From Actinomycetes bacterium (GTDB taxonomy: Bacteria > Actinomycetota > Acidimicrobiia > Acidimicrobiales > Acidimicrobiaceae): a DNA stretch of 46,069 nucleotides. The stretch spans positions 1 through 46,069 of the forward strand of contig JAJYGA010000032.1 of assembly GCA_021785255.1 (NCBI GenBank). The letters are read 5' to 3'. The translations under genes were made by a program, and so were the position numbers. This document shows, one piece after another, positions 787 to 41,050 of this stretch. How positions within the stretch are numbered: the stretch's first letter is position 1; the number at the start of each line of letters is the position of its first letter. The notes under the pieces are model-generated. The model was not told the origin of the DNA. It made no database searches and was given only the letters and a program-made list of their open reading frames with translations.

Positions 787-2016
787 ATGAGCATACGTGA
801 GCGCCTGTATCTCAAAGAGGAGGAACGACCCACTCTTATACGTCACTGCTCTGAAGCTCGTTATGTATGGAACCTAGCGCTCGAACAACGTAACTTATGG
901 GTTAGATACCGCACACAGAAGATCACGTATAACTCCCAAGCACATGAGCTGGCTGAGTTGCGTAGAGAAACTTGGTTGCGTGAAGGTTCCTCTGTAGTTC
1001 AGCAACAGGCTTTACGAGACTTGGATCGAGCCTTTCAGAACTGGTGGAAGAGACCGGATCACTTCTCTAGACCTACCTGGCGTAAGGCTGGTATCCACGA
1101 AGGCTTTGCCATTCGCGATCTATCTGTTCGACGGTTGAATCGCAAGTGGGGTCAGGTCTTCATCCCTAAGTGCGCTTGGGTGAAGTTCCGTATCACTCGA
1201 CAGTGCCAAGATATAGCACATGCTTCCTCAGCCAGGGTCACCAAAGATAGATCTGGTAGGTGGTTCGTGAGCTTCACTTATCCTGCTCCACAAATGGAAC
1301 GTGAACCCACCGGCGAAATCATCGGACTGGATATGGGGGTTGTTCACACTGCAACCATGTCTACTGGTGAATTCTTGGACATGCCAACACTTCTCTCCAA
1401 AGGCGAACAACAGTGCAAGCGTCGGTTACAGAGAAAGCTCGCTCGACAGGCCAAAGACTCTAATCGTCGCAAGTCCACCAAACTAGCTCTAGCTAAAGAG
1501 TCGGCTAAAGAGAAAGACCGTCGCAACAACTGGATCGAGAAAACGACAACTGATCTAGTGAGAAGCTATGACTTGATCGCACTAGAGAATCTAAAGATTA
1601 AGAACATGACCAAATCAGTTAAGGGAACAGTCGAGAATCCAGGAACCAACGTCGCTCAGAAAGCTGGTCTCAATCGGGTAATTCTTGAACGGGGTTGGTC
1701 ACTGTTTAAAAAGCGACTGACCGATAAGGCTACCAACGCCACCACGCCAGTCGAACTCATTTTCATCAATCCTGCATTTACAAGTATGTGTTGTTCTAAG
1801 TGTGGTCACACGGACAAAACAAATCGCGAGAGCCAAGCTATCTTTTGTTGTAAGGCGTGCGGCTACACAAATAACGCAGACATCAATGCAGCCAAGAATA
1901 TAATCTCAACCGCCGTAGGACATACGGTCTCAGGACGTGGAGGGACACCGCACGCTAGGTCTAACAAGACACAGCACAGCGACCCGATGAAACGTCAACC
2001 AGCCGAGGTCGCATGA
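787..2016 (+). CDS. tnpB: TnpB, RNA-guided nuclease of IS200/IS605-type element
   Basis: This 409-residue protein is a full-length TnpB (OrfB), the RuvC-type nuclease encoded by IS605/IS607-group elements and an ancestor of Cas12. The N-terminal region carries the usual YVWNLALEQ helix. The split RuvC site is complete: Asp182 in GLDMG, Glu267 in ALENL and Asp365 in NNADINAAKN. A four-Cys zinc finger lies between the last two (CSKC near 336-339, CKAC near 355-358). The family uses an omega RNA made from the 3' end of the gene and flank to cut a chosen DNA site. No TnpA gene is present nearby, so the element stands alone and could move only with help in trans. A GAGGT nine bases before ATG787 supports the start. 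With all catalytic residues present it is probably active. Confidence 0.93.
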   Translation: MSIRERLYLKEEERPTLIRHCSEARYVWNLALEQRNLWVRYRTQKITYNSQAHELAELRRETWLREGSSVVQQQALRDLDRAFQNWWKRPDHFSRPTWRKAGIHEGFAIRDLSVRRLNRKWGQVFIPKCAWVKFRITRQCQDIAHASSARVTKDRSGRWFVSFTYPAPQMEREPTGEIIGLDMGVVHTATMSTGEFLDMPTLLSKGEQQCKRRLQRKLARQAKDSNRRKSTKLALAKESAKEKDRRNNWIEKTTTDLVRSYDLIALENLKIKNMTKSVKGTVENPGTNVAQKAGLNRVILERGWSLFKKRLTDKATNATTPVELIFINPAFTSMCCSKCGHTDKTNRESQAIFCCKACGYTNNADINAAKNIISTAVGHTVSGRGGTPHARSNKTQHSDPMKRQPAEVA

Positions 2017-2051
2017 GAGCGACTTTGGAAGCCTCGTCCGTAAGGGCCGAG
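1960..2051 (+). ncRNA. Possible omega RNA (reRNA) scaffold of TnpB
   Basis: In TnpB elements the guide RNA overlaps the 3' end of the gene and ends with a structured scaffold next to the element's right end. Here the stop codon (2014-2016) is followed within 20 bases by a hairpin at 2033-2051 (CTCGTCC-GTAAG-GGCCGAG type, one mismatch). This is the place expected for the scaffold's last stem, and the guide would then begin near 2052. The 5' limit given is a guess. Position and hairpin are seen; RNA function is inferred from the family. Confidence 0.35.
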
Positions 2052-2677
2052 AGGATGTCACATGTATATGCCGAAGATATGTGCACCAGAGGTTCTCCAT
2101 TTCGTAAATGTGTCTAATGACTAATCATCGAAGAGGAGGTACGTTCAAATAGGTGGAACTTCAGTCGAGCCGGCACAAAAGGTTGCAATGGTACGAGGGA
2201 AACTATCAGGTGAGATTTGCGAAGTTAAGATTGATGGTGGTGGATGTTAGAGGCATTTACAATAGCTGAAATCGAACGTGTCAAAGTTCTTGAGGCGGTA
2301 ATGCGAGATCTCCATAGAGCTAATACAAAGCTCAAAGAGACTGGAGCTTTCGCTAAGATATGAACTAAACTGCAGCTCAATAGGTAGATAGATCGAGTTC
2401 CGAAAGTTCGTATGGGAAGTTGAGTTCACCTGCATGGTCCTGAACACGTTACCTGTGCTTATTACCCCATTAGGTTCTGATTTATCTCACCCGTCAGTCG
2501 CGAGACAAGATTCTGGAGCAAGAGATCTCAAAGATAAGTAAGAGAACTGCTTTGTCGTTGGTGTCAGATTTTCTGGCACCAACGAAGATCCGTTGCAAAG
2601 GCCATCAGAAGTCTTTTGTTTACGAGAATATTTGCTTGTGAGTAGGAGGTATCAAGATATTTTAGGAAAATCGAATA
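2017..2677. other. Non-coding, degenerate stretch between tnpB and the transposon
   Basis: No intact gene is visible. Between 2150 and 2360 the plus strand shows two short overlapping open stretches in different frames. One ends in KVAMVRGKLSGEICEV and then a stop; the next, from an ATG near 2239, reads LEAFTIAEIERVKVLEAV before ending at a TGA near 2358. They look like pieces of a decayed gene, but I do not recognise the parent. A strong inverted repeat sits at 2555-2585. The rest shows no pattern I can name. Confidence 0.4.
2555..2585. terminator. Long-stem inverted repeat
   Basis: The arms TCGTTGGTGTCAGA and TCTGGCACCAACGA form a 14-pair stem (one G-T when read as RNA) around a TTT loop. 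No run of T follows on either strand, so it is not a textbook terminator. It could still end transcription of the decayed region on its left or of the tRNA-Glu unit on its right, or be a remnant of a mobile-element end. Confidence 0.4.
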
Positions 2678-2694
2678 GCAAGTTGAAAACTTGC
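2678..2694 (-). terminator. Displaced tRNA-Glu terminator hairpin
   Basis: GCAAGTT-GAA-AACTTGC is a perfect seven-pair hairpin. On the minus strand it is followed by a T-rich run (TATTCGATTTT). If the transposon (2695-5839) and one target copy are removed, it lies directly after the last base of tRNA-Glu, where a terminator is expected. The right arm contains the ACTTGC target that the transposon duplicated. Confidence 0.6.
2689..2694. repeat. Target-site duplication, left copy
   Basis: ACTTGC lies immediately outside the left inverted repeat and is matched by ACTTGC at 5840-5845 immediately outside the right one. This is the short direct repeat left when a DDE transposase inserts. Confidence 0.85.
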
Positions 2695-2718
2695 GGGCTA
2701 GCGACAAAACTAGTCCTA
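2695..2718. repeat. Left terminal inverted repeat of transposon
   Basis: These 24 bases match the reverse complement of 5816-5839 at 23 positions; the difference is a T for C near the inner end (ACTAGTCC against ACTAGCCC). Confidence 0.92.
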
Positions 2719-2898
2719 GCAGCTAACTCTAGTCGATTTAGTGGATCAGATCCCATGCTAAGGGTGTAAAAATCCCAGTAGTGGTTTTGGCTTTTGTCTG
2801 TGTCTCAATACCAATCATTAGGTTTGTAAGAATCACGTAAATACATGCAATTGTATCCGCAGTATGATACTGTGGATATATCGAGGAAAGGGCCAGCT

Positions 2899-3240
2899 AT
2901 GGAGCCGGGCGAACGGTATCAGAGGAGACTTACTGAAATAGCATCTGAGCTGTCATCGATCGGGCTAAGTGTTCCTGGATCTCTAACGGTCCGCCGTTAT
3001 AGATGCGGTAAAGCCGGATGCAGTTGTCAAAGTGATGAATCAAAACTGCACGGTCCCTATATCTCCTGGACCAGAAAGATAAGCGGCAAAACTGTAACCA
3101 GACTGCTCAGCCAGGAACAATTTGACGAGTACCAGCAGTATTTTGACAACGCCAAACGTCTTCGGGAACTGGTACGTGAGATTGAGGCAATTTCACTTGA
3201 AATAGTAGAGAAAGACCCGAGGTGGAAAGCAAAAGACTAG
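2899..3240 (+). CDS. DUF6788-type transposon accessory protein
   Basis: First gene of the transposon. The protein matches the DUF6788 pattern: a short N-terminal helix, VPGSLTVRRYRCGKAGC, CSC, then LHGPYISW, GKTVTR and a C-terminal coiled helix rich in Leu and Glu. The RC..AGC.C cysteines could bind a metal, which suggests a small DNA-binding or targeting factor, but no function is established to my knowledge. I prefer ATG2899 (113 residues) because GAGGAAAGG lies seven bases ahead. An in-frame ATG at 2845 would add 18 residues with no clear ribosome site. The end overlaps the next gene by 19 bases, so translation is probably coupled. Confidence 0.75.
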   Translation: MEPGERYQRRLTEIASELSSIGLSVPGSLTVRRYRCGKAGCSCQSDESKLHGPYISWTRKISGKTVTRLLSQEQFDEYQQYFDNAKRLRELVREIEAISLEIVEKDPRWKAKD

Positions 3241-17263: not shown

Positions 17264-17977
17264 TTACCGAGATGTCTCCAGTCGGTAGCCGAGTCCTCTT
17301 ACCGTCGTGATTACCTTGGGGTCTGACGGATCCCTTTCTATTTTAGAGCGAAGTCGTTTTATGTGAACATCAAGGGTTTTTGTATCCCCTGAGTAGTAAG
17401 GACCCCAAACCCTATCGATTATCTGTTCGCGAGTTAATACCCTTCCTGGGTTGGAGATGAGGAACTCTAAGAGTTCAAACTCCTTGAGGGGAACCTTCAC
17501 TACCTCCCCACGAATCCTGACCTCATGTTTGGAAGTGTCGAGCACAATTTCACCAACTTCTATGCTTTCATTCTCGACTTGGCTCGTCACGTCGTAGTTA
17601 TCACCCGGAGTTCTTCTCATGACTGCTCTTACTCTTGCGACCAACTCTTTGAACCGATAAGGTTTAGAGATATAGTCATCGGCTCCAACTTCAAGACCGA
17701 CGACCGTATCGATCTCTGTAGACTTTGCCGTGACCATTATTATTGGTACTTTAGACTTGGAACGAATCTCCCGACAGACGTCAAGGCCTGATTTCTTGGG
17801 TAACATCACGTCCAAAAGAATTACGTCGGGTCTAAACTCTTCGAACTTTCGTGTCGCCTCTTCTCCGTCCCGAGCGGCTTCAACGAGAAAACCTTCCCGC
17901 TTTAAACCTAACGTGAGTGCCTCAATGAAAGACTCTTCATCTTCGGCTATTAATATTATGGGCTGGGTTCTGGTCAT
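17264..17977 (-). CDS. OmpR/PhoB-type response regulator, RegX3-like
   Basis: The 237-residue regulator has an N-terminal receiver with AEDEES acidic pocket, phospho-acceptor Asp56 (VILLDVMLP), MVTAKS and KPYRFKEL with the conserved Lys. The C-terminal winged helix is of the OmpR type (LKEFELLEFLISNPGRVLTREQI and TLDVHIKRLRSKIE). The late VTTVRGLGYRLE is close to actinobacterial RegX3 and PhoB, which respond to phosphate limitation. It overlaps the kinase gene by four bases. Phosphate control is the likely role by similarity; no Pho boxes were checked. Confidence 0.9.
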   Translation of the reverse strand: MTRTQPIILIAEDEESFIEALTLGLKREGFLVEAARDGEEATRKFEEFRPDVILLDVMLPKKSGLDVCREIRSKSKVPIIMVTAKSTEIDTVVGLEVGADDYISKPYRFKELVARVRAVMRRTPGDNYDVTSQVENESIEVGEIVLDTSKHEVRIRGEVVKVPLKEFELLEFLISNPGRVLTREQIIDRVWGPYYSGDTKTLDVHIKRLRSKIERDPSDPKVITTVRGLGYRLETSR

Positions 17978-19026
17978 CGCTCCTCATACATAATTGGTAG
18001 CCAGACTGTGAAGGTTGACCCCTTACCCTCTTCTGACTCTACTGTTATGCGCCCCTCATGGTTTTCTACCACGTGTCTAACTATAGAGAGTCCTAACCCA
18101 GTTCCTCCCGTTATTCTGGAACGGTTTTGATCGACTCGATAAAATCGTTCGAATATTCGTTCTAGATCTCTTGGCGGAATGCCTATGCCGTTGTCTCTTA
18201 CTGAGAGGGTTAACCACTCATCGGAGTTGGTGACCTCGAGTTGAATGTGTCCGTTCTGGTCGCAGTATTTAACGGCGTTGTCAAGGAGGTTGTATACAGC
18301 TGAGATCATCTGACGGAAGTCTATCCAAACGTCTGGCACATCTTCGGAGATGATGACATCTATGGAAACATCTTTCAACGAAGCTGACGTGGAAACTCGA
18401 GAGACCGCCTCTTGGATCACTTGATTAATCGGCTGCATACTCCGCTCGGTCGACCCAGACGATTCGATTCTAGATAGATCAAGTAAGTCTTCGACGATTC
18501 GCCCTAACCTAATGGCTTCTTTTTCCACCCGAGATGACAGTCTTGCTAAAACGTCAGGTTCGCTTTCAATTGACATCGTCTCCGCAAGCAGTTGCATGGC
18601 TCCAATGGGAGTTTTAAGTTCATGTGATACGTTGGCGACAAAGTCCCTCCTAACGTCGTCTAACTGTTTTTTCAACGAGATATCTTCAAGAGTTGCGGCA
18701 AACCCGACTACCTTTCGATCTTGAATCAATGGAGTAGCCTTTGCTAAGAAGCTTCTTTTTGGAGGTCCAAATAGATCAAAGTTTTGATCCGTGTAGTTAC
18801 CTTTTGCCGCCTCGAGGATTAAGTTCTGAAACTCCTTGGCCGCGAGTGCATCGCCGTAGGAAGTGGAAAACATGCGATCAGCCGGATTATTTACGAAAAC
18901 TGTCTTACCGTTGGTGTCGCATACCACGACGCCGAGATTTAAAGAGTTCAAAGTCATCTCAAGGTATGCAACTTTGTCATGAATAGACAATGACTGATCG
19001 GGATGTTCGTTGGAGTCTTGAAGCAT
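17974..19026 (-). CDS. Sensor histidine kinase, SenX3-like, without membrane spans
   Basis: The 350-residue kinase has a PAS domain (about 25-115, LGVVVCDTNGKTVFVNNPADRMF), a dimerisation-phosphotransfer helix with His135 (FVANVSHELKTPIGAMQ), and an ATPase domain with N box LLDNAVKYC, DNGIGIPPRDL, FERFYRVD and GTGLGLSIVRHVV. No hydrophobic span is present, and an in-frame TAG lies directly before the ATG, so it cannot be extended. SenX3 and PhoR homologues usually have membrane spans, so this one probably senses a cytosolic signal or depends on a membrane partner such as a PhoU-type protein. Confidence 0.9.
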   Translation of the reverse strand: MLQDSNEHPDQSLSIHDKVAYLEMTLNSLNLGVVVCDTNGKTVFVNNPADRMFSTSYGDALAAKEFQNLILEAAKGNYTDQNFDLFGPPKRSFLAKATPLIQDRKVVGFAATLEDISLKKQLDDVRRDFVANVSHELKTPIGAMQLLAETMSIESEPDVLARLSSRVEKEAIRLGRIVEDLLDLSRIESSGSTERSMQPINQVIQEAVSRVSTSASLKDVSIDVIISEDVPDVWIDFRQMISAVYNLLDNAVKYCDQNGHIQLEVTNSDEWLTLSVRDNGIGIPPRDLERIFERFYRVDQNRSRITGGTGLGLSIVRHVVENHEGRITVESEEGKGSTFTVWLPIMYEER

Positions 19027-19189
19027 CTATGACCTCGTTGACGTAACTTTAAATTTCATAACTATCAATCTAAAAACATTCTTGCTGAATTGCGTCTTGA
19101 ATCTAAGTTACTAAATGTATGAAAAGTTAGGAAAGACAATGAAATATCATGTAATATATCACAATTAGCTAAATCCAAGGAGGAATTCA
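19027..19189. promoter_or_regulatory. Divergent intergenic region, kinase / secretion-like operon
   Basis: This 163-base A+T-rich gap must hold the promoters of the kinase operon (leftward) and of the long gene train starting at 19190 (rightward). TAATAT near 19152 is a possible -10 for the rightward unit. AAGGAGG at 19177-19183, six bases before the ATG, is the strongest ribosome site seen in this region. No clear operator was found. Confidence 0.4.
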
Positions 19190-19480
19190 ATGAGCCGGAT
19201 GCTCTTAGATGTCAGTCTGTCCCCCAATCCTTCAGCTCTACCTGGTGGATCTACGCTTCAGAGTCTCGCTAATGGTGTGGGCGGATGGGCATTGATCATT
19301 GCACTTGTTGGTCTGGTGATCGGCGCAGCGACTTGGGCGATTGGGGCACACTCTCAAAACTACCAACAAAGTTATCTCGGCAGAAGGGCGGTGTTGGTAT
19401 CTGGAGCTGCGGCGTTACTTATTGGTGGAGCACCAGCAATCATTAATTTCTTTTTTCACCTTGGGCTCGGAATCAATTGA
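19190..19480 (+). CDS. DUF6112/VirB2-like small membrane protein
   Basis: The 96-residue protein has two membrane spans (GGWALIIALVGLVIGAATWAIG and VLVSGAAALLIGGAPAIINFFFHLG) joined by a hydrophilic HSQNYQQSYLGRRA loop. That plan fits VirB2/TrbC pilin-like proteins and the actinobacterial DUF6112 proteins found in conjugative elements. A very good ribosome site (AAGGAGG) sits six bases before the start, as expected for an abundant structural subunit. It is first in a train of genes that continues through the secretion ATPases into the flagellar genes. Its stop overlaps the next start. Confidence 0.7.
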   Translation: MSRMLLDVSLSPNPSALPGGSTLQSLANGVGGWALIIALVGLVIGAATWAIGAHSQNYQQSYLGRRAVLVSGAAALLIGGAPAIINFFFHLGLGIN

Positions 19481-20673
19481 TGGTGGTCTATCAGATCGAC
19501 TCCATCTTTTCCGGTGTTGCTAGCTACTTCTTAAAGTTGTTGCTACGTACTCTTTCATACGCGTTCGACAAGGGCCTTGAGTCAGTCTTTATTTGGCTTA
19601 TCGGAGCTTTGGGAACTGAGGTAAAGAACTCGACCGTGTTTGAACCAACGGCGCATTTTTTTCTTCTTGAGTATTCTTACGTGCTCCAAATAGCTAAAGC
19701 CCTGGCGTTGCCTGCTCTCTTATTGGGATTAATCTTTGCGATAATAAGTGGGTCTTTGTTAGAGGCTGTTAAGGCGGCGTTCATTAAGGTGCCGTTGGTA
19801 GCTCTTGTGGGTGGTGGCGGGGTAGCTCTTGTTGCGCTTCTAAACGGTGTTGTGGAGTACATTTGTACTCCGCTTGAGTCCAGCTCTACGATTTTCTCCC
19901 ACTTGCAAGTGTATGCAAGTGGCGTAAGTTCTGCTAAATCGATTCCTATCTTTGTAGTGGCGCTGCTTTTTCTTCTTGGCGTGTTGGCGGAGATCGCTCT
20001 GTGGCTTGAGTTGATTCTTAGAAATGGCGCACTTTATCTGGTAACGGCCACTCTACCTTTGGCCAGTATTGGGGTCTTGTTCCCATGGGGGAGAACCTGG
20101 TTGAGGCGAACTATTGAAGTAATCGTAGCTCTCGAAATGGTGAAGTTTGTAGCACTACTAGGTCTTTGGCTTTCGTTAGGAGCGGTTATGCAAAGTACCT
20201 TGGGTGGAAGAGCTCAGGAGGTAGTTAGTACTTTTTTGGCTGGAATAGCGATGTTGATGGTGTCGGTTTTGTCACCTTACCTAGTTATAAGACTGATTCC
20301 CCTGGCAGACCTTCATCTAGCTGCCTCAATTGAGGGGGGCGTGACGGGTTCATTTAGAAGACTCAGTGGCTCTGCGGCAAACGTTCTATCTGAAAGTGAT
20401 GGAATCACTAGTTATGACCCATGGCCCGATGTGCCTTTTTCTAATGAGGCAGTTGACATTCCACCATTCGAAGGCTATCCGCCAGTATATGAGATGGTCA
20501 GCTCGGTAAAGTACTCCAAATTCGCTCGATCTATGTACGGTCTTGATCCAGACACGGAACCAACTGATGAAGAAGTGGAGAACCTTATGAGGGAGTATGG
20601 CGTGGATATGACGCGATATCACGATGGCGCGATGGATGACGAGGTACATTGCGATCCAGATCAGGAGGCGTAA
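19480..20673 (+). CDS. VirB6/TrbL-like channel protein
   Basis: The protein of about 397 residues has six or more membrane spans in its first 290 residues, including ALPALLLGLIFAIISGSLL, a Gly-rich span VALVGGGGVALVALL, and FVVALLFLLGVLAEIALWLELILRN, whose end resembles the VirB6/TrbL signature. The C-terminal 100 residues are soluble and acidic. VirB6-type proteins form the inner part of a type IV secretion channel. A TTG at 19477 and ATG at 19480 both fit; the ATG overlaps the upstream stop by one base. The next gene follows after one base. Confidence 0.75.
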   Translation: MVVYQIDSIFSGVASYFLKLLLRTLSYAFDKGLESVFIWLIGALGTEVKNSTVFEPTAHFFLLEYSYVLQIAKALALPALLLGLIFAIISGSLLEAVKAAFIKVPLVALVGGGGVALVALLNGVVEYICTPLESSSTIFSHLQVYASGVSSAKSIPIFVVALLFLLGVLAEIALWLELILRNGALYLVTATLPLASIGVLFPWGRTWLRRTIEVIVALEMVKFVALLGLWLSLGAVMQSTLGGRAQEVVSTFLAGIAMLMVSVLSPYLVIRLIPLADLHLAASIEGGVTGSFRRLSGSAANVLSESDGITSYDPWPDVPFSNEAVDIPPFEGYPPVYEMVSSVKYSKFARSMYGLDPDTEPTDEEVENLMREYGVDMTRYHDGAMDDEVHCDPDQEA

Positions 20674-20674
20674 G

Positions 20675-22033
20675 ATGAACTTTGCTTTGTCGAGTGCAAA
20701 AGGTCGTACGGTACTGTTAGGTCTGTCAACATTTCAAGTGTTGACACTATCTGTTAGTGCGTTAATTGTGTTTGCTGGCGTGATTGGATCGCATAGTTCA
20801 GCAGTATTTTGCGGGTATCTGCTGGTTTCACTTGTTGTTTCGTGTCTAGGGTTACTTACGAGGGAAAACAAACCCTTGATTGTCTCGATTCTCATCGCCA
20901 TTAGATTTTTGTCATCCAAAGATACGGTTAGATCTCAAAGAGTTCACAAAAAGAACCCCAGACTTCTTCGAAGGCGAGACAGGCCTCAAGGAGGGAAAAA
21001 ACGATCAATTGGAGTTGCTTACAAAGTTCAGACACAGCGCGTTGATCAGGGATGCCTCTGTCTTTACGACAAGAGATCAGCCGTGGCATCTTTGGGTTTT
21101 GCTCTACCCAAACGCTCGTACTTGCACGCATCCTTGGAAGAGCTGGAGAAGATATCTCTACGGTGGGGCGACTTTCTTAGTAGATGTTCAGATGTCATGG
21201 AGCCAAAGTTAAAGACATATACCAGGATTGACATAGTGCCGCCTTGGCGTTGCGATTCGGTCGATTTCGAAGGTCTTTCGAGTATAGATCTTTGGCTTCA
21301 GAGAGATCTCCTGAGTCAAAGCTGGTCTACACGATCATCGTTCTGGTTGGAAAGTAATGTCAAAGCAAATACTTTGGGAATTTCTCCCAAGATTAGATCT
21401 GTGTCTGGAGAGGTCAAGGCTAAATTTTCGGCAATTTTCGATATGACACTGGGAGAACCACCTCTTTATGTGCGTGGGAAAAAACCTAGTGAGCAATTCA
21501 ATCCATCTTCTGATGAATGCCAGATGCTGAAGTCGGAGGACTTTTCCGAGTACTATCAAGAAGTTCGCGTTGGCGCATTGATTTATCGTTGTTTTGAAGT
21601 TGCCAGATGGCCAAGCGGAACTTTAAAGGCGGGAGCCCTCAACCCTCTTTTCCAGCCGAAACCTCCTGCCCGAACGGTTGTCTTAGAAGCCACACCTTTG
21701 GATCGGGCGAGGTCGTTACGTCGAGCAGAACGCGAGCGATCTGAAGCCATTGCCAACAAGAAGATGAGACAAAAGGCGGGATACTCTGAAAAGCTCTCTT
21801 ATCGCGTAGATGAAGTGGAGTTGGGTCGTATGGAGTCCGAGGTGGTCGACGGGCATGTGCTTTTGTCATATAGAACGATTGTCGTAATATTTGCACCGAC
21901 CCTTTTGGAACTGATGATCTCAGACCGACAGCTGTCTTCGCTTGCTTCCAAAATTGGGGTGACACTAACTTCGCTCGACGGTCTTCATTTGGAGACTTTG
22001 ACAGGAATCGAAGAACGAACGGGGGTTCTTTAG
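20675..22033 (+). CDS. SCO6880-like type IV secretion component
   Basis: ATG20675 is chosen because AGGAGG (20663-20668) lies six bases before it; an upstream in-frame start would overlap the previous gene by 50 bases. The 452-residue product has two membrane spans near the N-terminus (SVSALIVFAGVIG and FCGYLLVSLVVSCLGLL), like PrgI/VirB3-type proteins, and a long soluble part. That is the plan of the SCO6880 family, which I read as VirB3-like spans plus the part that forms the N-terminal domain of VirB4. A charged helix near residues 340-370 (RARSLRRAERERSEAIANKK) may contact the ATPase. The stop overlaps the next start by one base. Confidence 0.65.
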   Translation: MNFALSSAKGRTVLLGLSTFQVLTLSVSALIVFAGVIGSHSSAVFCGYLLVSLVVSCLGLLTRENKPLIVSILIAIRFLSSKDTVRSQRVHKKNPRLLRRRDRPQGGKKRSIGVAYKVQTQRVDQGCLCLYDKRSAVASLGFALPKRSYLHASLEELEKISLRWGDFLSRCSDVMEPKLKTYTRIDIVPPWRCDSVDFEGLSSIDLWLQRDLLSQSWSTRSSFWLESNVKANTLGISPKIRSVSGEVKAKFSAIFDMTLGEPPLYVRGKKPSEQFNPSSDECQMLKSEDFSEYYQEVRVGALIYRCFEVARWPSGTLKAGALNPLFQPKPPARTVVLEATPLDRARSLRRAERERSEAIANKKMRQKAGYSEKLSYRVDEVELGRMESEVVDGHVLLSYRTIVVIFAPTLLELMISDRQLSSLASKIGVTLTSLDGLHLETLTGIEERTGVL

Positions 22034-23271
22034 TGTTCAAGACTACCTTTACGGAGACCTCTCGGTCTCTTGGGATCTTCGTTCCACTTCTGAACTCTGA
22101 TACCCCACCATGTAAACGAGTGGGAATAGGAGTTGCAACAAGCGGTGGTGTATTCAGGTTCGATCCGTTCGAACTGTATGAAAATGGCTTCATCTCGAAT
22201 CCTAACATCTCTGTCATGGGTCGTGTCGGTCGCGGGAAAAGTGCCTTTGTGAAGAGCCTGCTTTTGCGAAGTGCTGAGTATGGACGCTCGTTTTTAGTAC
22301 TTGATCCAAAAGGTGAATACAAGGAGTTCGCGCAAGCAACCAAAGCTCAAAGGGTACGTTTTGAACTTGCGGGTGAAGAAAGACTCGATCCCTTCTTGGG
22401 GATAAGTTCTCTTAGAGATCCTCGAGTGGAGACTATCTCGACGGTTTCAGAGATACTCAGAGCAGTTCTTAAGAGGCCTTTAGACTCCTCTGAGTCCATA
22501 GTCGTCGAGGAGGTGGTCGACCTAGAGTTGGCACACGTTTCGCGACCTTCTTTAGAACACATGGCGATCCTCTTGGCAGAAGGTGACAGAACACTCGGCG
22601 TTCCCAATGACAATGTCCTCAGCCGACAAGCGATTGTGAACGTGCTGTCTGTTTTAAGGAGGCTTCTATGGGGTGACTTGAGTGGACTATTGGGAACCTC
22701 ATCGACCAGTAGAGACCTGAGTCAAAGGAGTGTTATTGATCTGTCCAAACTAGTTGAAAGCGAGCTGTTTGGGGTAGTCATCAATCTCATCTTGGCGCAG
22801 AGATTTCGTTCTATGCGAGATCAGAAGATATCAAAGGGTTTTGTCGTCTTAGATGAAGCTTGGTCGGTTCTGGAGAGTCGTGAATCAGCAAGTCGATTTA
22901 AGTCTTTGTTTAAGCTCGCTCGTTCTTATGGGTCCTCGAATCTTGCTGTTACGCATAGGTTGTCTGACTTGGGGAGCGCTACTTCAGGAAGTGAAAAAGC
23001 AATGGATTCGCTATCGCTGGCAGCCGATTCGGAGACTTTTGTGCTATATGGACAACCACCATCAGAGATTCAGCGAGTGTGTGAGTTTTTGGGGCTGCCA
23101 AAGCATCTGGGAGAACGGCTCCCAAACCTTCCCAAAGGCGTAGCTCTTTGGAGTATCGCTGGACGAACATACTTTGTGAGACATGTCCTTCACCCACTTG
23201 AGCGAGAGATTGTGAATACCGATCAGGCGATGGTAGCATCCGTTTTTCATCAGGTTTCTGGGGAAAATTAA
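22033..23271 (+). CDS. VirB4-like secretion ATPase
   Basis: The 412-residue protein has Walker A GRVGRGKS (63-70), the family pattern SFLVLDPKGEYKEFA directly after it, and Walker B GFVVLDEAWSVLES (Asp274-Glu275), with a later AVTHRLSDLG sensor stretch. These mark the VirB4/TraC/ConE ATPases that power type IV secretion. It lacks the usual N-terminal domain, which seems to be supplied by the preceding gene. The start is GTG22033, sharing a base with the upstream stop; the stop likewise shares a base with the VirD4-like gene. Confidence 0.85.
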   Translation: MFKTTFTETSRSLGIFVPLLNSDTPPCKRVGIGVATSGGVFRFDPFELYENGFISNPNISVMGRVGRGKSAFVKSLLLRSAEYGRSFLVLDPKGEYKEFAQATKAQRVRFELAGEERLDPFLGISSLRDPRVETISTVSEILRAVLKRPLDSSESIVVEEVVDLELAHVSRPSLEHMAILLAEGDRTLGVPNDNVLSRQAIVNVLSVLRRLLWGDLSGLLGTSSTSRDLSQRSVIDLSKLVESELFGVVINLILAQRFRSMRDQKISKGFVVLDEAWSVLESRESASRFKSLFKLARSYGSSNLAVTHRLSDLGSATSGSEKAMDSLSLAADSETFVLYGQPPSEIQRVCEFLGLPKHLGERLPNLPKGVALWSIAGRTYFVRHVLHPLEREIVNTDQAMVASVFHQVSGEN

Positions 23272-24608
23272 TGTCGAACCTTCACTCGTTGTTAGTCATA
23301 TCTCTACTCACGGTGGTGGTGTTCGACCATTTGGTAAGTAAAAATGGACGAACGAAATCTGCCGATGAGCTAAAAGATATTGGTGTTGGCGGCTTTTTTT
23401 CGAAAATATGGCGGGGCTTCAGTTTTAATTCGAACAGATGGATGCTTATTGGTGGACGACGGCATGTTAAGATCCACTCCTCTAACTCAATAGTGGTATT
23501 TGGTCCAACGCGATGTGGGAAAACTACCTACGTGCTGGTTCCGATACTGTGCGACTTTGATGGATCTGCGGTAGTTACCTCAGTTAAGAATGACGTGTAC
23601 CTAAAGAGTTGTACCACTCGAGGCTTAAAGACCAAGGTGTTAGCTATCTCTGAGTATGCCGGGGACCAAAGTTGGTGCTGGGACCCGGTCGACTATGCGA
23701 AGAACGTGCCAGAGGCTCGAGAGGTGGCACACCATATGGTGATCTCATCTGGTGAGTATCGCAACTCGAGTGGTGATTCGAAGTTTTGGTATCGTTTAGC
23801 TGAGCCATTGTTAGCTGGAGTCCTGTTGGCATCGAGTACTACTGAGACGATAGAGGAGCGAAAAGCACTCTGTAGTTTTGATGATATTGATCTTTTGTTC
23901 AATCGACTTGACTTTGTTGGCGCAGATGATTTGTCACAGTCAATTTTGGCTGTACTTAGAAATGACGAACGTCATGCATCCTCGGTCCTCATTACTGCTC
24001 AAAGCGTCCTAAATCCACATCTTCAAGCGCTTGAACTCTTTAAAGATGCGTCTTTCAAGCTAGATCTGAACCAAATACTGAGATCCAGATGGACTCAGCC
24101 CTTTACCCTTTACCTAATAGCTTCCTTATCCACTCAGTCCCGTTTAGCTCCGTATTTTGGTACCATTGTCTCTCTCGTCGGTGCCACTTTAATGAAGGAG
24201 GAGTATAGAACATCTAACGTCTTGTTTGCTCTTGATGAACTAGCAAATGTCGCGCCTGTCTCTGACCTGATGAAGTTTGCCTCGGCGGGGCTGGCGTTTG
24301 GGCTGCAGATGGTCTCTGTGTTTCAAGACTTTTCTCAGACGAGAAACATATATGGTGACTCGGCGGGAACGGTGATAAACAATCATGGTTCAAAAATATT
24401 TTTCGGTGGCATCTCCGATCCCTCAACGCTTGAGCTGTTTCGCTCAGTCCTCTCTTCGACAGAGCAGGCGGATTCGAATTGGCGACTTGAGATCTCTCGT
24501 ATTCGTAGAGGTGAGGCAGTCATATGCGAACCCTTTACACCTCCTTCAAAGGTGCGTCTTGAACGGCGATCTTCTTTAAAGTTGCGAAAAAAATTTACTT
24601 TTGGGTAA
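23271..24608 (+). CDS. VirD4/TraG-like coupling ATPase
   Basis: The 445-residue protein begins with a short hydrophobic span, then IVVFGPTRCGKTT (Walker A, Lys84-Thr85), VTSVKNDVY, a long insert, and Walker B with NVLFALDELANVAPV (Asp322-Glu323). The closing GLQMVSVFQDFSQ and NHGSKIFFGGISDP stretches are typical of type IV coupling proteins, which pass DNA or protein substrates to the channel. It is shorter than most VirD4 proteins and has only one clear membrane span. No relaxase gene is near. The first flagellar gene starts 19 bases after its stop. Confidence 0.88.
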   Translation: MSNLHSLLVISLLTVVVFDHLVSKNGRTKSADELKDIGVGGFFSKIWRGFSFNSNRWMLIGGRRHVKIHSSNSIVVFGPTRCGKTTYVLVPILCDFDGSAVVTSVKNDVYLKSCTTRGLKTKVLAISEYAGDQSWCWDPVDYAKNVPEAREVAHHMVISSGEYRNSSGDSKFWYRLAEPLLAGVLLASSTTETIEERKALCSFDDIDLLFNRLDFVGADDLSQSILAVLRNDERHASSVLITAQSVLNPHLQALELFKDASFKLDLNQILRSRWTQPFTLYLIASLSTQSRLAPYFGTIVSLVGATLMKEEYRTSNVLFALDELANVAPVSDLMKFASAGLAFGLQMVSVFQDFSQTRNIYGDSAGTVINNHGSKIFFGGISDPSTLELFRSVLSSTEQADSNWRLEISRIRRGEAVICEPFTPPSKVRLERRSSLKLRKKFTFG

Positions 24609-24627
24609 AAGGTGACGAACAACAAAC

Positions 24628-25098
24628 ATGAGTTTGCAACAAATCTCCAACCACATGGAGTTAATTCGAGGAGCATTAGACGAAATTGAGTATCGACTTT
24701 CCACCCTTATGCTTTTTGCTCAAAGCGGTGACTACAAGTTTCTTGAGCGAGCATCAAGAGATGTAGCTAAGGCCTCGGCCGTTTTGGTGCAGCTTGAGAT
24801 CGAGAGAATGGATCTCTTCTCCAACGTGGTACCTTCCACATCTGCTCAGGTTACGCTTTCTGATATCTCGAGATCTGCAGATGAGCCTTGGAGAACTGCT
24901 TTTGACGAAATGAGTGTAGTTCTCCGACAGAAACTCGAAACCATAACGGAACTTCAACAAAAGGTTCGTGCGGTCTGCCAAGAGAAGATAGAGGTGATTG
25001 ATAATACCTTGACACTTCTAGGAGGCAACGGATCGGTGTACAATGCGGCAGGAAACAAAGCAGCACTTCGTTCAGCGATTTTGAGCGAGTCAGCATGA
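24628..25098 (+). CDS. flgN: FlgN-like flagellar export chaperone
   Basis: The 156-residue, almost wholly helical acidic protein has the length and heptad pattern of FlgN, the chaperone that delivers FlgK and FlgL to the flagellar export gate. Its position directly before flgK, with ATGA overlap, is the main support; sequence identity in this family is weak. It follows the VirD4-like gene by 19 bases with AAAGGTGA as ribosome site, so no separate promoter is obvious. Confidence 0.7.
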   Translation: MSLQQISNHMELIRGALDEIEYRLSTLMLFAQSGDYKFLERASRDVAKASAVLVQLEIERMDLFSNVVPSTSAQVTLSDISRSADEPWRTAFDEMSVVLRQKLETITELQQKVRAVCQEKIEVIDNTLTLLGGNGSVYNAAGNKAALRSAILSESA

Positions 25099-26471
25099 GC
25101 GGTTCCTATTACATCGCTCTTTCTGGATTGAATGCAGCCCAGAGCGGGCTTGATGTCGTTAGCCAAAACATCGCAAACGCTTCAACTCCTGGATATGTCA
25201 GAGAAAGACTTAATCTTTCCGCGTTAGTATCTCCAACAACAGGTGCTGGTGAGGGTGTAAAGATGCAATCGGTATCTTTGGTCTCCTCAGCTTTTCAGGC
25301 TAATTCACTAAATGCTACGTCTGCCCAGCAAGGATATGCCACTTCTGTTTCTCAAGTGTTGACTACGGCACAGAGTTACTTAAATGAACCGTCAAGTAGT
25401 GGAATCTCCGAACAGCTGGCTAACTTTTGGTCGGCTTTTGACGGAGTCGCTAACGCGCCCACGCAGTTAGCCCCACGACAACAGCTTATTGCTCAAGCTC
25501 AAAACTTGACTCAAACCTTCAATCAGCTATCTCAAAACTACGTTGATCTTTATAATTCGACCGTAGGAGCTATCGGAACAAACCTTAAAAGTGTTAACTC
25601 GACGCTGTCTCAAGTTGCGCAGTTGAATACCCAGATCGTATCAGTGGGACCAAGTGAGGCGAATACGCTGATAAACCAACGAAATCAGTTGATCTCGAAT
25701 CTAGCTTCGTCTATTGGAGTAACTGTACAGAATCAAGCTAATGGATCTGTGAATCTGTTGGTGGGAGGCGTTATGGTGGTGCAGGACGGGGTCAGTTCTA
25801 CCCTGTCGATCAACTCACCCACTGCGCCGCCAATGCCAGCACATTCATCAGTGTCCATTATGTCCTCCCAGGGCGGGGGGGCTGTGCCTCTTACCTCCGG
25901 CACGGTTGGGGGATTGTTGGCGACCGTTAACTCTTCTTTGCCAAGTTACTCTGCATCGTTAGACCAGGTAGCCTCTTCACTCGCGTCGACCGTCAACAAT
26001 CAACTCGCCGCGGGAAACTCATATCCAAATAATGGCACTACTCCTCAGAGCGGAATACCGTTATTTATCTTCGGTGGAAACGGTACTGCCAATGCTCTCA
26101 ATCTCACGGTAAATGGTGCTTTAGTATCAGACCCTTATTCCTTGGCTGCTGCGGGTAATCCGCCTCAAGGAAATAACGACGGGTCGAATGCCCAAACAAT
26201 GGCAGAGCTTTCTGCTTTATCGAATGGTCCTGACGCTCTTTATCGTTCCATGGTTGGAGGAGTTGGGCTTGACGTGTCCAATGCCAGTAGCTTGATGAGT
26301 TCCTCACAAGTAGCTTATCAAAGTTCATACCAGCAGCTTCAGAGTGTCTCTGGAGTGTCGACCAATCAACAACTTGTTGATATGCTCAACTACCAGCAAG
26401 GATACCAGGCTGCCGCGAAGGTTATCTCAACAATTTCCACCTCGGTCCAATCTCTAATGCAGGCGGTGTAA
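25095..26471 (+). CDS. flgK: Flagellar hook-associated protein 1
   Basis: The 458-residue protein opens with the FlgK signature (YYIALSGLNAAQSGLDVVSQNIANASTPGYVRE), the rod/hook-type N-terminal helix, and ends with the matching C-terminal helix (VSTNQQLVDMLNYQQGYQAAAKVISTISTSVQSLM). FlgK forms the first ring of the hook-filament junction outside the cell. The central region is Ser/Asn/Gly-rich and variable. It is secreted through the flagellar export gate. The flgL start is two bases after its stop. Confidence 0.95.
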   Translation: MSGSYYIALSGLNAAQSGLDVVSQNIANASTPGYVRERLNLSALVSPTTGAGEGVKMQSVSLVSSAFQANSLNATSAQQGYATSVSQVLTTAQSYLNEPSSSGISEQLANFWSAFDGVANAPTQLAPRQQLIAQAQNLTQTFNQLSQNYVDLYNSTVGAIGTNLKSVNSTLSQVAQLNTQIVSVGPSEANTLINQRNQLISNLASSIGVTVQNQANGSVNLLVGGVMVVQDGVSSTLSINSPTAPPMPAHSSVSIMSSQGGGAVPLTSGTVGGLLATVNSSLPSYSASLDQVASSLASTVNNQLAAGNSYPNNGTTPQSGIPLFIFGGNGTANALNLTVNGALVSDPYSLAAAGNPPQGNNDGSNAQTMAELSALSNGPDALYRSMVGGVGLDVSNASSLMSSSQVAYQSSYQQLQSVSGVSTNQQLVDMLNYQQGYQAAAKVISTISTSVQSLMQAV

Positions 26472-26473
26472 CT

Positions 26474-27361
26474 GTGTATACGCTTCCACTTACCCAGTCG
26501 GCAATATCGCTCATGTCCAGTACTAATTTGAACATGGACCAAAACCAACTTCAGGTACTACAGAATCAACTTACTGTCGGCCAAAACATAACTCAACCCT
26601 CTGACAATCCTGCCGGAGTGGTAGCTGTCATGAACGTGTCGGCGCAGCAAGTCCGCTTTAACCAATATCAAACAAACGCCCAAAGTGGACTTACGGTTGC
26701 ACAGATGGCCAACGGTACTTTAAACGATGCTGTGAGTGTATTGCAAAGTGCTCGAACGACGCTTTTGCAAGCGGGTAGTTCGGCCGTTACCCCTGCATCG
26801 GCTTCAGGACTCATTGCATCGTTGCAGGCAGATTCCAAGACTTTGTTGGGAATGGCCAATACTGCTTACATGGGGAACGCGATCTTCGCAGGAACCTCAG
26901 GATCTCAAACTGCTTATGACTCTTCGGGGAACTATCTTGGATTTGGACCGCCTCCGTCAACCACTGTGGCGCCTGGTTTTCAAGCTCCTACGGTAGTGGT
27001 GGCGCCATTTGGTCAAAGTGGATCTTCGACGAACATGTTCTCAGCTATTCAAAAAGCCATTACTGATCTACAAGCTGGTAACTATTCTGCTGTGTATCAG
27101 GGGGACCTTCAGAACTTTGATACGGCTTTTAATCAGGTAACTTCGGCAGCGGCCACTCAAGGAGAGTACGTTAAGGAGTTGCAGTTCATGCAAAATCAAG
27201 CTACTCAGTCTCTTCAAAATGTCCAGACTCAGTTCGGTAATTTGCAGAACATCAACTATCCACAGTTAACGACGCAGTATAGCCAACAGCTATCAAACTA
27301 TCAGATCGCCTTACAAGTGGTCTCCCAGGCAGTACAACCGACACTAGCAAAGTACATATAA
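26474..27361 (+). CDS. flgL: Flagellar hook-associated protein 3
   Basis: The 295-residue protein resembles flagellin in its first 140 residues (LTVGQNITQPSDNPAGVVAVMNV) and in its C-terminal helix, and joins FlgK to the filament. It has the canonical order after flgK. A GTG start is used. The protein is rich in Gln, Asn and Ser with no cysteine, as expected for an exported filament-type protein. Confidence 0.93.
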   Translation: MYTLPLTQSAISLMSSTNLNMDQNQLQVLQNQLTVGQNITQPSDNPAGVVAVMNVSAQQVRFNQYQTNAQSGLTVAQMANGTLNDAVSVLQSARTTLLQAGSSAVTPASASGLIASLQADSKTLLGMANTAYMGNAIFAGTSGSQTAYDSSGNYLGFGPPPSTTVAPGFQAPTVVVAPFGQSGSSTNMFSAIQKAITDLQAGNYSAVYQGDLQNFDTAFNQVTSAAATQGEYVKELQFMQNQATQSLQNVQTQFGNLQNINYPQLTTQYSQQLSNYQIALQVVSQAVQPTLAKYI

Positions 27362-27394
27362 GTAAAAGTGAGAAGTAGATATTTAGGAGGAAGT

Positions 27395-27877
27395 GTGGCT
27401 GATTTCACAGCTCAAAATGTAGCTACAATGCGTGAGGAAGTTAAATCAATGGGTGACATTGCTCCGCACGACTTGGTATTTTCCTTTCCAATCGGAGTAC
27501 CTGGCTACCCCGATGTTAGGAACTTTCAGCTTTTGCCTTTAGGCGTTGAGTTTGGACCTTACCTAGCGCTTAGGAACATGGGTTCCGACTATCCCGTCTT
27601 TGTAGTAGCGCAACCCTATTCCGTAGTCGAGGATTACGTCGTTGATATTGACGACCTTCACCAGGGCCTGTTGGGTCTTGAAAACGGCTCGACAAATGTA
27701 CTGGTATTGCTCATAGTGTCATTGGATCAAAAAAGTAATCTGCCTAAAGCAAATCTTGCGGCTCCGTTAGTCATTAACCTTGATAACATGTTAGGTTTTC
27801 AAGTTCCTCAGGGCAACCTAGAGTTTACGATGGACCATCAGCTTTCCGTTCCCTTTAGAGACATGTCGAGAAGTTAA
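27395..27877 (+). CDS. fliW: Flagellar assembly factor FliW
   Basis: FliW binds flagellin and CsrA in turn, so that flagellin translation is freed once flagellin is exported. The family pattern is clear: LVFSFPIGVPGYPDVRNFQLLPL, the strand pair FVVAQPY, VLLIVSLD, and NLAAPLVINLDNMLGFQV. I choose GTG27395 because AGGAGG (27385-27390) is four bases ahead; a GTG at 27368 would place that site inside the gene. csrA, its partner, lies convergent, the two stops 15 bases apart. Confidence 0.92.
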   Translation: MADFTAQNVATMREEVKSMGDIAPHDLVFSFPIGVPGYPDVRNFQLLPLGVEFGPYLALRNMGSDYPVFVVAQPYSVVEDYVVDIDDLHQGLLGLENGSTNVLVLLIVSLDQKSNLPKANLAAPLVINLDNMLGFQVPQGNLEFTMDHQLSVPFRDMSRS

Positions 27878-41022: not shown

Positions 41023-41050
41023 TAAAGTTGTTGATATTTGATGACGAAGA
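41023..41050 (+). promoter_or_regulatory. Possible flagellar sigma promoter of flagellin gene
   Basis: TAAAGTTG (41023-41030) matches seven of eight bases of the flagellar -35, and GACGAAGA (41043-41050) matches five of eight of GCCGATAA. TAAA and the second box are 16 bases apart, within the range for SigD-type promoters. It would give a leader of about 75 bases. Confidence 0.4.

Follow-up and report, generated by a model that had tools for sequence, protein, structure and literature searches.

Does a set of type IV secretion system (T4SS)-like genes that runs directly into a flagellar operon form one device with the flagellum, or is it a machine of its own? The question is raised by a 46,069-nt stretch of DNA (the window), which is contig C14 of a 2.57-Mb, 96% complete metagenome-assembled genome of an acid-loving bacterium of the genus Ferrithrix (family f1, Acidimicrobiaceae, to which all counts of family genomes refer). 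Five genes, here called T1 to T5, are followed there by flgN-flgK-flgL-fliW. The computational comparison covered the identity of the components, the organization of VirB4, conservation of the locus, the presence and motif integrity of a relaxase, and a promoter-like block at the junction with the flagellar genes. T1 to T5 are an actinobacterial T4SS with a split VirB4, comprising a VirB2-like pilin, VirB6, T3, T4, and VirD4; we lean towards a role in DNA transfer, with the flagellar operon as an old neighbor.

Components of the T1-T5 cluster

Families were assigned to the open reading frames (ORFs) of the window by Pfam and NCBIfam profile scores against their cut-offs. The nine ORFs concerned all lie on the + strand, and T1 to T5 are intact:

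19190..19480, + strand: T1, VirB2-like pilin (DUF6112; PF19607 36.8 bits, cut-off 25; TrbC/VirB2 sub-threshold)
19477..20673, + strand: T2, VirB6-like polytopic membrane protein (AlphaFold model versus TrwI/VirB6)
20675..22033, + strand: T3, SCO6880 family, N-terminal membrane part (probably VirB3-like) plus N-terminal half of VirB4 (NF042935 and model)
22033..23271, + strand: T4, C-terminal ATPase half of VirB4 (PF19044 and PF12846 above cut-off)
23271..24608, + strand: T5, VirD4-type coupling ATPase (PF02534 85.8 bits, cut-off 20.1)
24628..25098, + strand: flgN, flagellar chaperone (PF05130 22.4 bits, sub-threshold)
25095..26471, + strand: flgK (TIGR02492 276.7 bits)
26474..27361, + strand: flgL (TIGR02550 128 bits, cut-off 127.2)
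27368..27877, + strand: fliW (PF02623 76.9 bits)

The ORFs, families, and tight spacing given in an earlier, sequence-only reading of this DNA held up, with gaps of at most 1 base or short overlaps within T1-T5 and then 19 bases between T5 and flgN; the start of T3 was revised from 20624 to ATG 20675, most likely the true one because a Shine-Dalgarno sequence lies just upstream and the L022 orthologue has the same start.

The cluster contains a VirB4-type ATPase, a VirB6 together with a VirB2-like pilin, and a VirD4 coupling protein, all parts by which a T4SS is recognized. For T2, model residues 40-278 had TrwI/VirB6 (7o3v_J) as the best match, at the top in both programs, with a Z of 11.4 over 233 residues; as this is below the Z of 13 advised for helical proteins, support for VirB6 is moderate. 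T2 itself had no family match, the T2 of one relative matched TrbL just under the cut-off, and a search of PDB sequences with T2 and T3 profiles returned no match. T5 has one N-terminal hydrophobic segment and a Walker A motif, read from the sequence, and T1 shares 97% amino acid identity with that of the congener G002, the highest value among the 12 genes compared.

A VirB4 divided between T3 and T4

That the VirB4 function is spread over two genes, as the earlier reading had surmised, is well supported, because a structure match of T3, profile matches of T4, and a T3-T4 fusion in a relative agree. T3 scored 56.3 bits against the SCO6880-family profile NF042935, just below the cut-off of 60. 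Its AlphaFold model, built from 28 sequences (pLDDT 79, pTM 0.78), superposes with residues 120-466 on residues 1-376 of TrwK/VirB4 (Z 21.1, rmsd 4.6, 319 residues, 10% identity), a similarity also found by Foldseek (E 1.7e-10). The T4 profile matches the VirB4 ATPase 4ag5 (8.8e-28) and TrwK 446-739, and Walker A and DEAW are conserved in T4. In G018 (L037:1-2508), T3 and T4 are a single ORF of 836 residues.

Two side observations concern T3. Including its membrane part, it aligns with EccE of ESX-3 (6umm_A), and the T3 of G038 has a weak match to the EccE Pfam family, which suggests that EccE and the N-terminal half of VirB4 share an origin. Between its T3 and T4, G038 encodes a large protein that carries F5/8 type C and Ig-like domains and may be an adhesin (L085:170-2683).

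Conservation and inheritance of the locus

When gene order was compared in relatives, 15 family genomes of seven genera showed the same order, T1-T5 followed by flgN-flgK-flgL-fliW, and dozens of further genomes had T1-T5 by itself, a recurrence beyond chance; the linkage to the flagellar genes is conserved in 7/8 genera of the family. Altogether the conserved T1-T5 locus was seen in about 80 loci and many other genomes. Across Acidimicrobiia, it adjoins a sensor histidine kinase (HK) gene, usually with a response regulator (RR) gene and often with serS (serS-RR-HK beside T1-T5), mostly without flagellar genes. T4 distances follow the distances measured for serS (r 0.53, n=27), HK (r 0.82, n=51), and flgK (r 0.85, n=14; permutation p 0.0005 each). 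All five T genes are under purifying selection in comparisons between congeners, in which dS is saturated; pN/pS was 0.021/0.652 for T1 and 0.138/0.722 for T4.

Because this chromosomal place is kept across many Acidimicrobiia, the T1-T5 cluster is, as judged from gene order and divergence, not a recent mobile element, and it appears to be a stable part of the chromosome that is passed on by vertical descent. An integrative conjugative element would carry T4SS, relaxase, integrase, and attachment site as one excisable unit; no integrase or relaxase was found among the window ORFs scanned, and synteny is fixed over genera. The only mobile-element gene found in the window is a TnpB/IS605-type gene (787-2016) at its left end; the stretch 787-3240 there also holds a DUF6788 gene.

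A second, distinct VirD4-like gene (for example, L042:9623-10897) occurs in about 20 family genomes in a fixed context of genes for a CoA-transferase, an alpha/beta hydrolase, a D-Ala ligase-like protein, and a Mur ligase-like protein. This class (L041-L059) was considered as a second T4SS and rejected, since its neighbors are housekeeping genes and the window's genome (G000) lacks it.

A MobF relaxase at another chromosomal site

The earlier reading saw a compact secretion device with no relaxase, VirB8-like gene, or integrase nearby, and none of the three was found among the window ORFs scanned. As a description of the genome, "relaxase-less" had to be dropped, because the profile PF08751 detects a MobF relaxase where the relaxase profile PF03432 had given 0/40 relatives. 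MobF is encoded at another fixed chromosomal site in 22/24 family genomes; the two exceptions are assemblies of 76% and 85% completeness. The window's genome has the gene (G000:C88) at L073:2085-4424 (NF041492 133.8 bits, cut-off 100), surrounded by ordinary genes, for instance for a PafC/WYL regulator and an AMP-binding enzyme, which in relatives also include CtaG and TypA. Tyr13, His134, His143, and His145 are invariant in 12 sequences that are 16-57% identical to the first, giving the catalytic Tyr and three His of an HUH relaxase; Tyr13 was matched by position, because the Pfam match begins at residue 41. The 22 family MobFs form one clade (support 99/97).

In eight loci from beyond the family (G038, L107, L126, L128, L143, L152, L164, and L166), the MobF gene and T1 are immediate neighbors in divergent orientation. 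Of the genomes of the order and class that do not belong to the family, 8/10 with T4 have MobF and 2/15 without T4 do (Fisher p 0.002). From this co-occurrence and adjacency in relatives, we infer a partnership between relaxase and T4SS. The T4SS-adjacent MobFs and those at the TypA locus were expected to form one clade, an expectation that the tree did not bear out. A second, short MobF match in the window's genome (G000:C1:9827-10066, L081; 37 bits) is possibly the remnant of a mobile element.

Absence of ComEC

ComEC is the usual channel for DNA uptake. Its profile, PF03772, had no match in the family genomes (0/24) or in G031 and G038, two genomes that carry T1-T4 as well (G031 also T5), whereas ComEC was found in all of the remaining 14. 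Over 199 genomes of the class, ComEC was missing in 36/50 with T4 and in 11/149 without (odds ratio 32, Fisher p 1e-18, kinship ignored). Most of the 14 class genomes with both T4 and ComEC are sporadic T4 carriers, possibly through mobile elements. As the T4SS occurs mainly in lineages without ComEC, it may serve DNA exchange in these bacteria.

Proposed function and alternatives

On balance we favor, by a modest measure, the explanation that T1-T5 and the unlinked chromosomal MobF make up a domesticated, minimal conjugation-type T4SS of monoderm cells that moves single-stranded cellular DNA between cells. MobF would nick the DNA and lead the single strand, VirD4 (T5) would hand the strand over, and VirB4 (T3 and T4), VirB6 (T2), and the pilin (T1) would form the channel. 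T1-T5 would probably be controlled by the neighboring HK-RR pair, and the downstream flagellar operon, driven by a sigma28-type promoter of its own, would be a long-standing neighbor outside the machine. We infer DNA as the substrate, and likewise the direction of transfer and the regulation. More tentatively, and with less confidence than doubt, we suggest that an entire clade within the Acidimicrobiia abandoned transformation through ComEC and depends on the split-VirB4 T4SS and unlinked MobF for exchange of chromosomal DNA, as a bacterial counterpart of archaeal Ced/Ted that sits beside the flagellar operon in Acidimicrobiaceae.

Several observations weigh against a DNA-transfer function. 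MobF is unlinked to the T4SS within Acidimicrobiaceae, the T1-adjacent MobFs fall in other MobF clades than that of the family, and G037 and G195 carry T4 without MobF. No helicase domain was found, and neither an oriT nor oriT-like repeats could be made out convincingly. VirB8/TcpC (PF12642) was not found in nine genomes, although a diverged VirB8 could escape the profile; the cluster has no dedicated lytic enzyme, and VirB1 was not found. VirB8 and VirB1 may be diverged or dispensable. The family f26 (G195/G271/G291) is a real exception to the ComEC pattern, with a conserved-looking T4 and ComEC both kept, and through relatedness the associations with ComEC and MobF may rest on few independent events. 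The one tested chromosomal analogue in actinobacteria, cmdABCDEF of Streptomyces, affects sporulation and had no transfer phenotype (PMC2782261).

Some of the same points would fit protein secretion, in which a T4SS without a mobilization gene (MOBless) exports signals, antagonistic effectors, or adhesins and MobF serves something else. Chromosomal T4SSs without a local MOB are often protein secretors (PMC3158045), the chromosomal relative cmdABCDEF acts in differentiation (PMC2782261), and MobF is unlinked within the family. We nevertheless regard it as unlikely, though a live rival, given that no candidate effector accompanies the operon across genomes and that MobF co-occurs with the T4SS and adjoins T1 in the eight relatives outside the family.

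Quite improbable, in our estimate, though likewise a live rival, is import of DNA, by which T1-T5 would take DNA from neighboring cells in the manner of Ced/Ted and replace uptake through ComEC. The core parts of Ced/Ted, VirB2, VirB6, and VirB4, are also here (PMC9905601), T4 matches the CedB profile weakly (3.1e-9), and genomes with the conserved T4SS lack ComEC; VirD4 and a motif-intact MobF point instead to export, and the archaea are without a relaxase according to the Ced/Ted authors (PMC9905601).

The junction with the flagellar operon

One rival is a joint T4SS-flagellum device, made from a single transcript and with a common role in motility or in surface filaments, along the lines of the sequence-only reading. 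The tight spacing and the linkage in 15 genomes of seven genera speak for it, and read-through from T5 into flgN is possible, because no terminator was found between them. The regulatory context of the cluster comprises the following features:

17264..17977, - strand: RR, partner of HK (PF00072/PF00486; same context in relatives)
17974..19026, - strand: HK, divergent neighbor of T1 (PF02518/PF00512; adjoins T1 in most relatives)
19110..19189, + strand: putative housekeeping-type promoter and Shine-Dalgarno sequence of T1-T5, ATGAAAT..TATAAT-like, AAGGAGGA (conserved in four Ferrithrix genomes)
24594..24621, + strand: putative sigma28/FliA-type promoter of flgN, TTTAC-N16-GACGAACA, overlapping the 3' end of T5 (conserved DNA block)

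Some 50 bases around 24585-24640 are conserved in 4/4 Ferrithrix genomes, even though the T5 frame of F. thermotolerans ends differently. In nine further family loci, GCCGAT, the sigma28 -10 core, stands at -15 to -17 of flgN (-31 in L040), and in most of them TTAG or TTTA lies ahead of it at the distance usual for sigma28; L024 is without GCCGAT. A sigma28-like site of the same form, TAAA-N16-GACGAAGA, lies upstream of fliC (41023-41050 of the window); it was spotted by eye, so that its chance figure is biased. The junction motif is visible only through comparison of orthologous T5-flgN junctions: a scan of the window for the canonical sigma28 form TAAA-N14-16-GCCGATAA was at chance level (13 matches versus 13.2 in shuffles), as was the scan for consensus promoters and terminators.

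The earlier reading had named a promoter between 24608 and 24628 as evidence against a single transcript, and the promoter-like block at 24594-24621 is, at the sequence level, evidence of that kind. Family members without FlgK (G012, G020, and G022) retain T1-T5, most Acidimicrobiia carry the cluster without flagellar neighbors, and G015 has flagella that are unlinked to T4-T5. Because of this putative junction promoter and this distribution, a joint device is very doubtful, and in the simplest reading T1-T5 and the flagellar operon would be two separately driven units and old neighbors. In two of the members without FlgK, G012 and G022, T5 is directly followed by an intact flgN (L034:10811-11254 and L033:9047-9490), an orphan chaperone gene whose partners flgK, flgL, and fliW are gone.

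A decaying or cryptic integrated conjugative element, which related T4SSs of other classes with MobF 5-25 kb away resemble in looking mobile, is extremely unlikely here, given the fixed position over many genera, the strong purifying selection on intact genes, distances that track host genes, and no integrase among the window ORFs scanned.

Significance

We found no paper in the open-access literature that describes the T1-T5 system of Acidimicrobiia. Guglielmini et al. noted the many relaxases of actinobacteria and their surprising shortage of T4SSs, for which they considered low similarity an improbable reason (PMC3158045); a split-VirB4 T4SS whose N-terminal half is hard to recognize offers a concrete candidate explanation for some of this gap. 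If the module does move cellular DNA, vertically inherited conjugation would be a housekeeping trait of ComEC-less lineages, which to our knowledge would be new for bacteria, and this DNA-exchange function is directly testable in culturable iron-oxidizing acidophiles.

Comparison with known systems

T1-T5 appear to belong to the SCO6880-type group of actinobacterial T4SSs, which includes Streptomyces cmdABCDEF (SCO4126-4131) and its relative SCO6871-6884 or the tra genes of plasmid SLP2 (PMC2782261). Like T1-T5, cmdABCDEF is a chromosomal, cotranscribed cluster, with a VirB4-like CmdB, an SCO6880-like CmdC, and a VirB6-like relative; it has no flagellar neighbor, and its mutants are affected in sporulation and antibiotic production (PMC2782261). 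The T2, T3, and T4 profiles match a locus of a probable Streptomyces genome (L200, L201) at low scores, its T4 reaching only about 200 bits against the T4 profile made here, and in contrast to cmdABCDEF the T1-T5 operon includes VirD4 and is accompanied by a conserved chromosomal MobF.

Archaeal Ced/Ted is likewise a domesticated, chromosome-encoded T4SS with homologues of VirB2, VirB6, and VirB4 (PMC9905601), whereas T1-T5 are bacterial and have a split VirB4, VirD4, and a MobF relaxase. Like T1-T5, the T4SS of Patescibacteria is a widespread, chromosomal, monoderm system with VirB2-like pilins that mostly has no relaxase nearby; it has VirB8 and VirB1, whereas T1-T5 have no recognizable TcpC and a split VirB4 (PMC12102498). 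ESX-3 of mycobacteria shares with T3 the alignment of EccE (6umm, 6sgz; Z 13.8 over 261 residues) but is a type VII secretion system without VirB6 or VirD4. With the VirB/Trw T4SS of R388 (8rtd, 7o41, 7o3v), T1-T5 share the folds of VirB4 (T3 and T4) and VirB6 (T2) and the MobF class of relaxase; the R388 system, in contrast, is diderm, with an outer-membrane core, VirB5, and VirB7-11, and its VirB4 is one protein.

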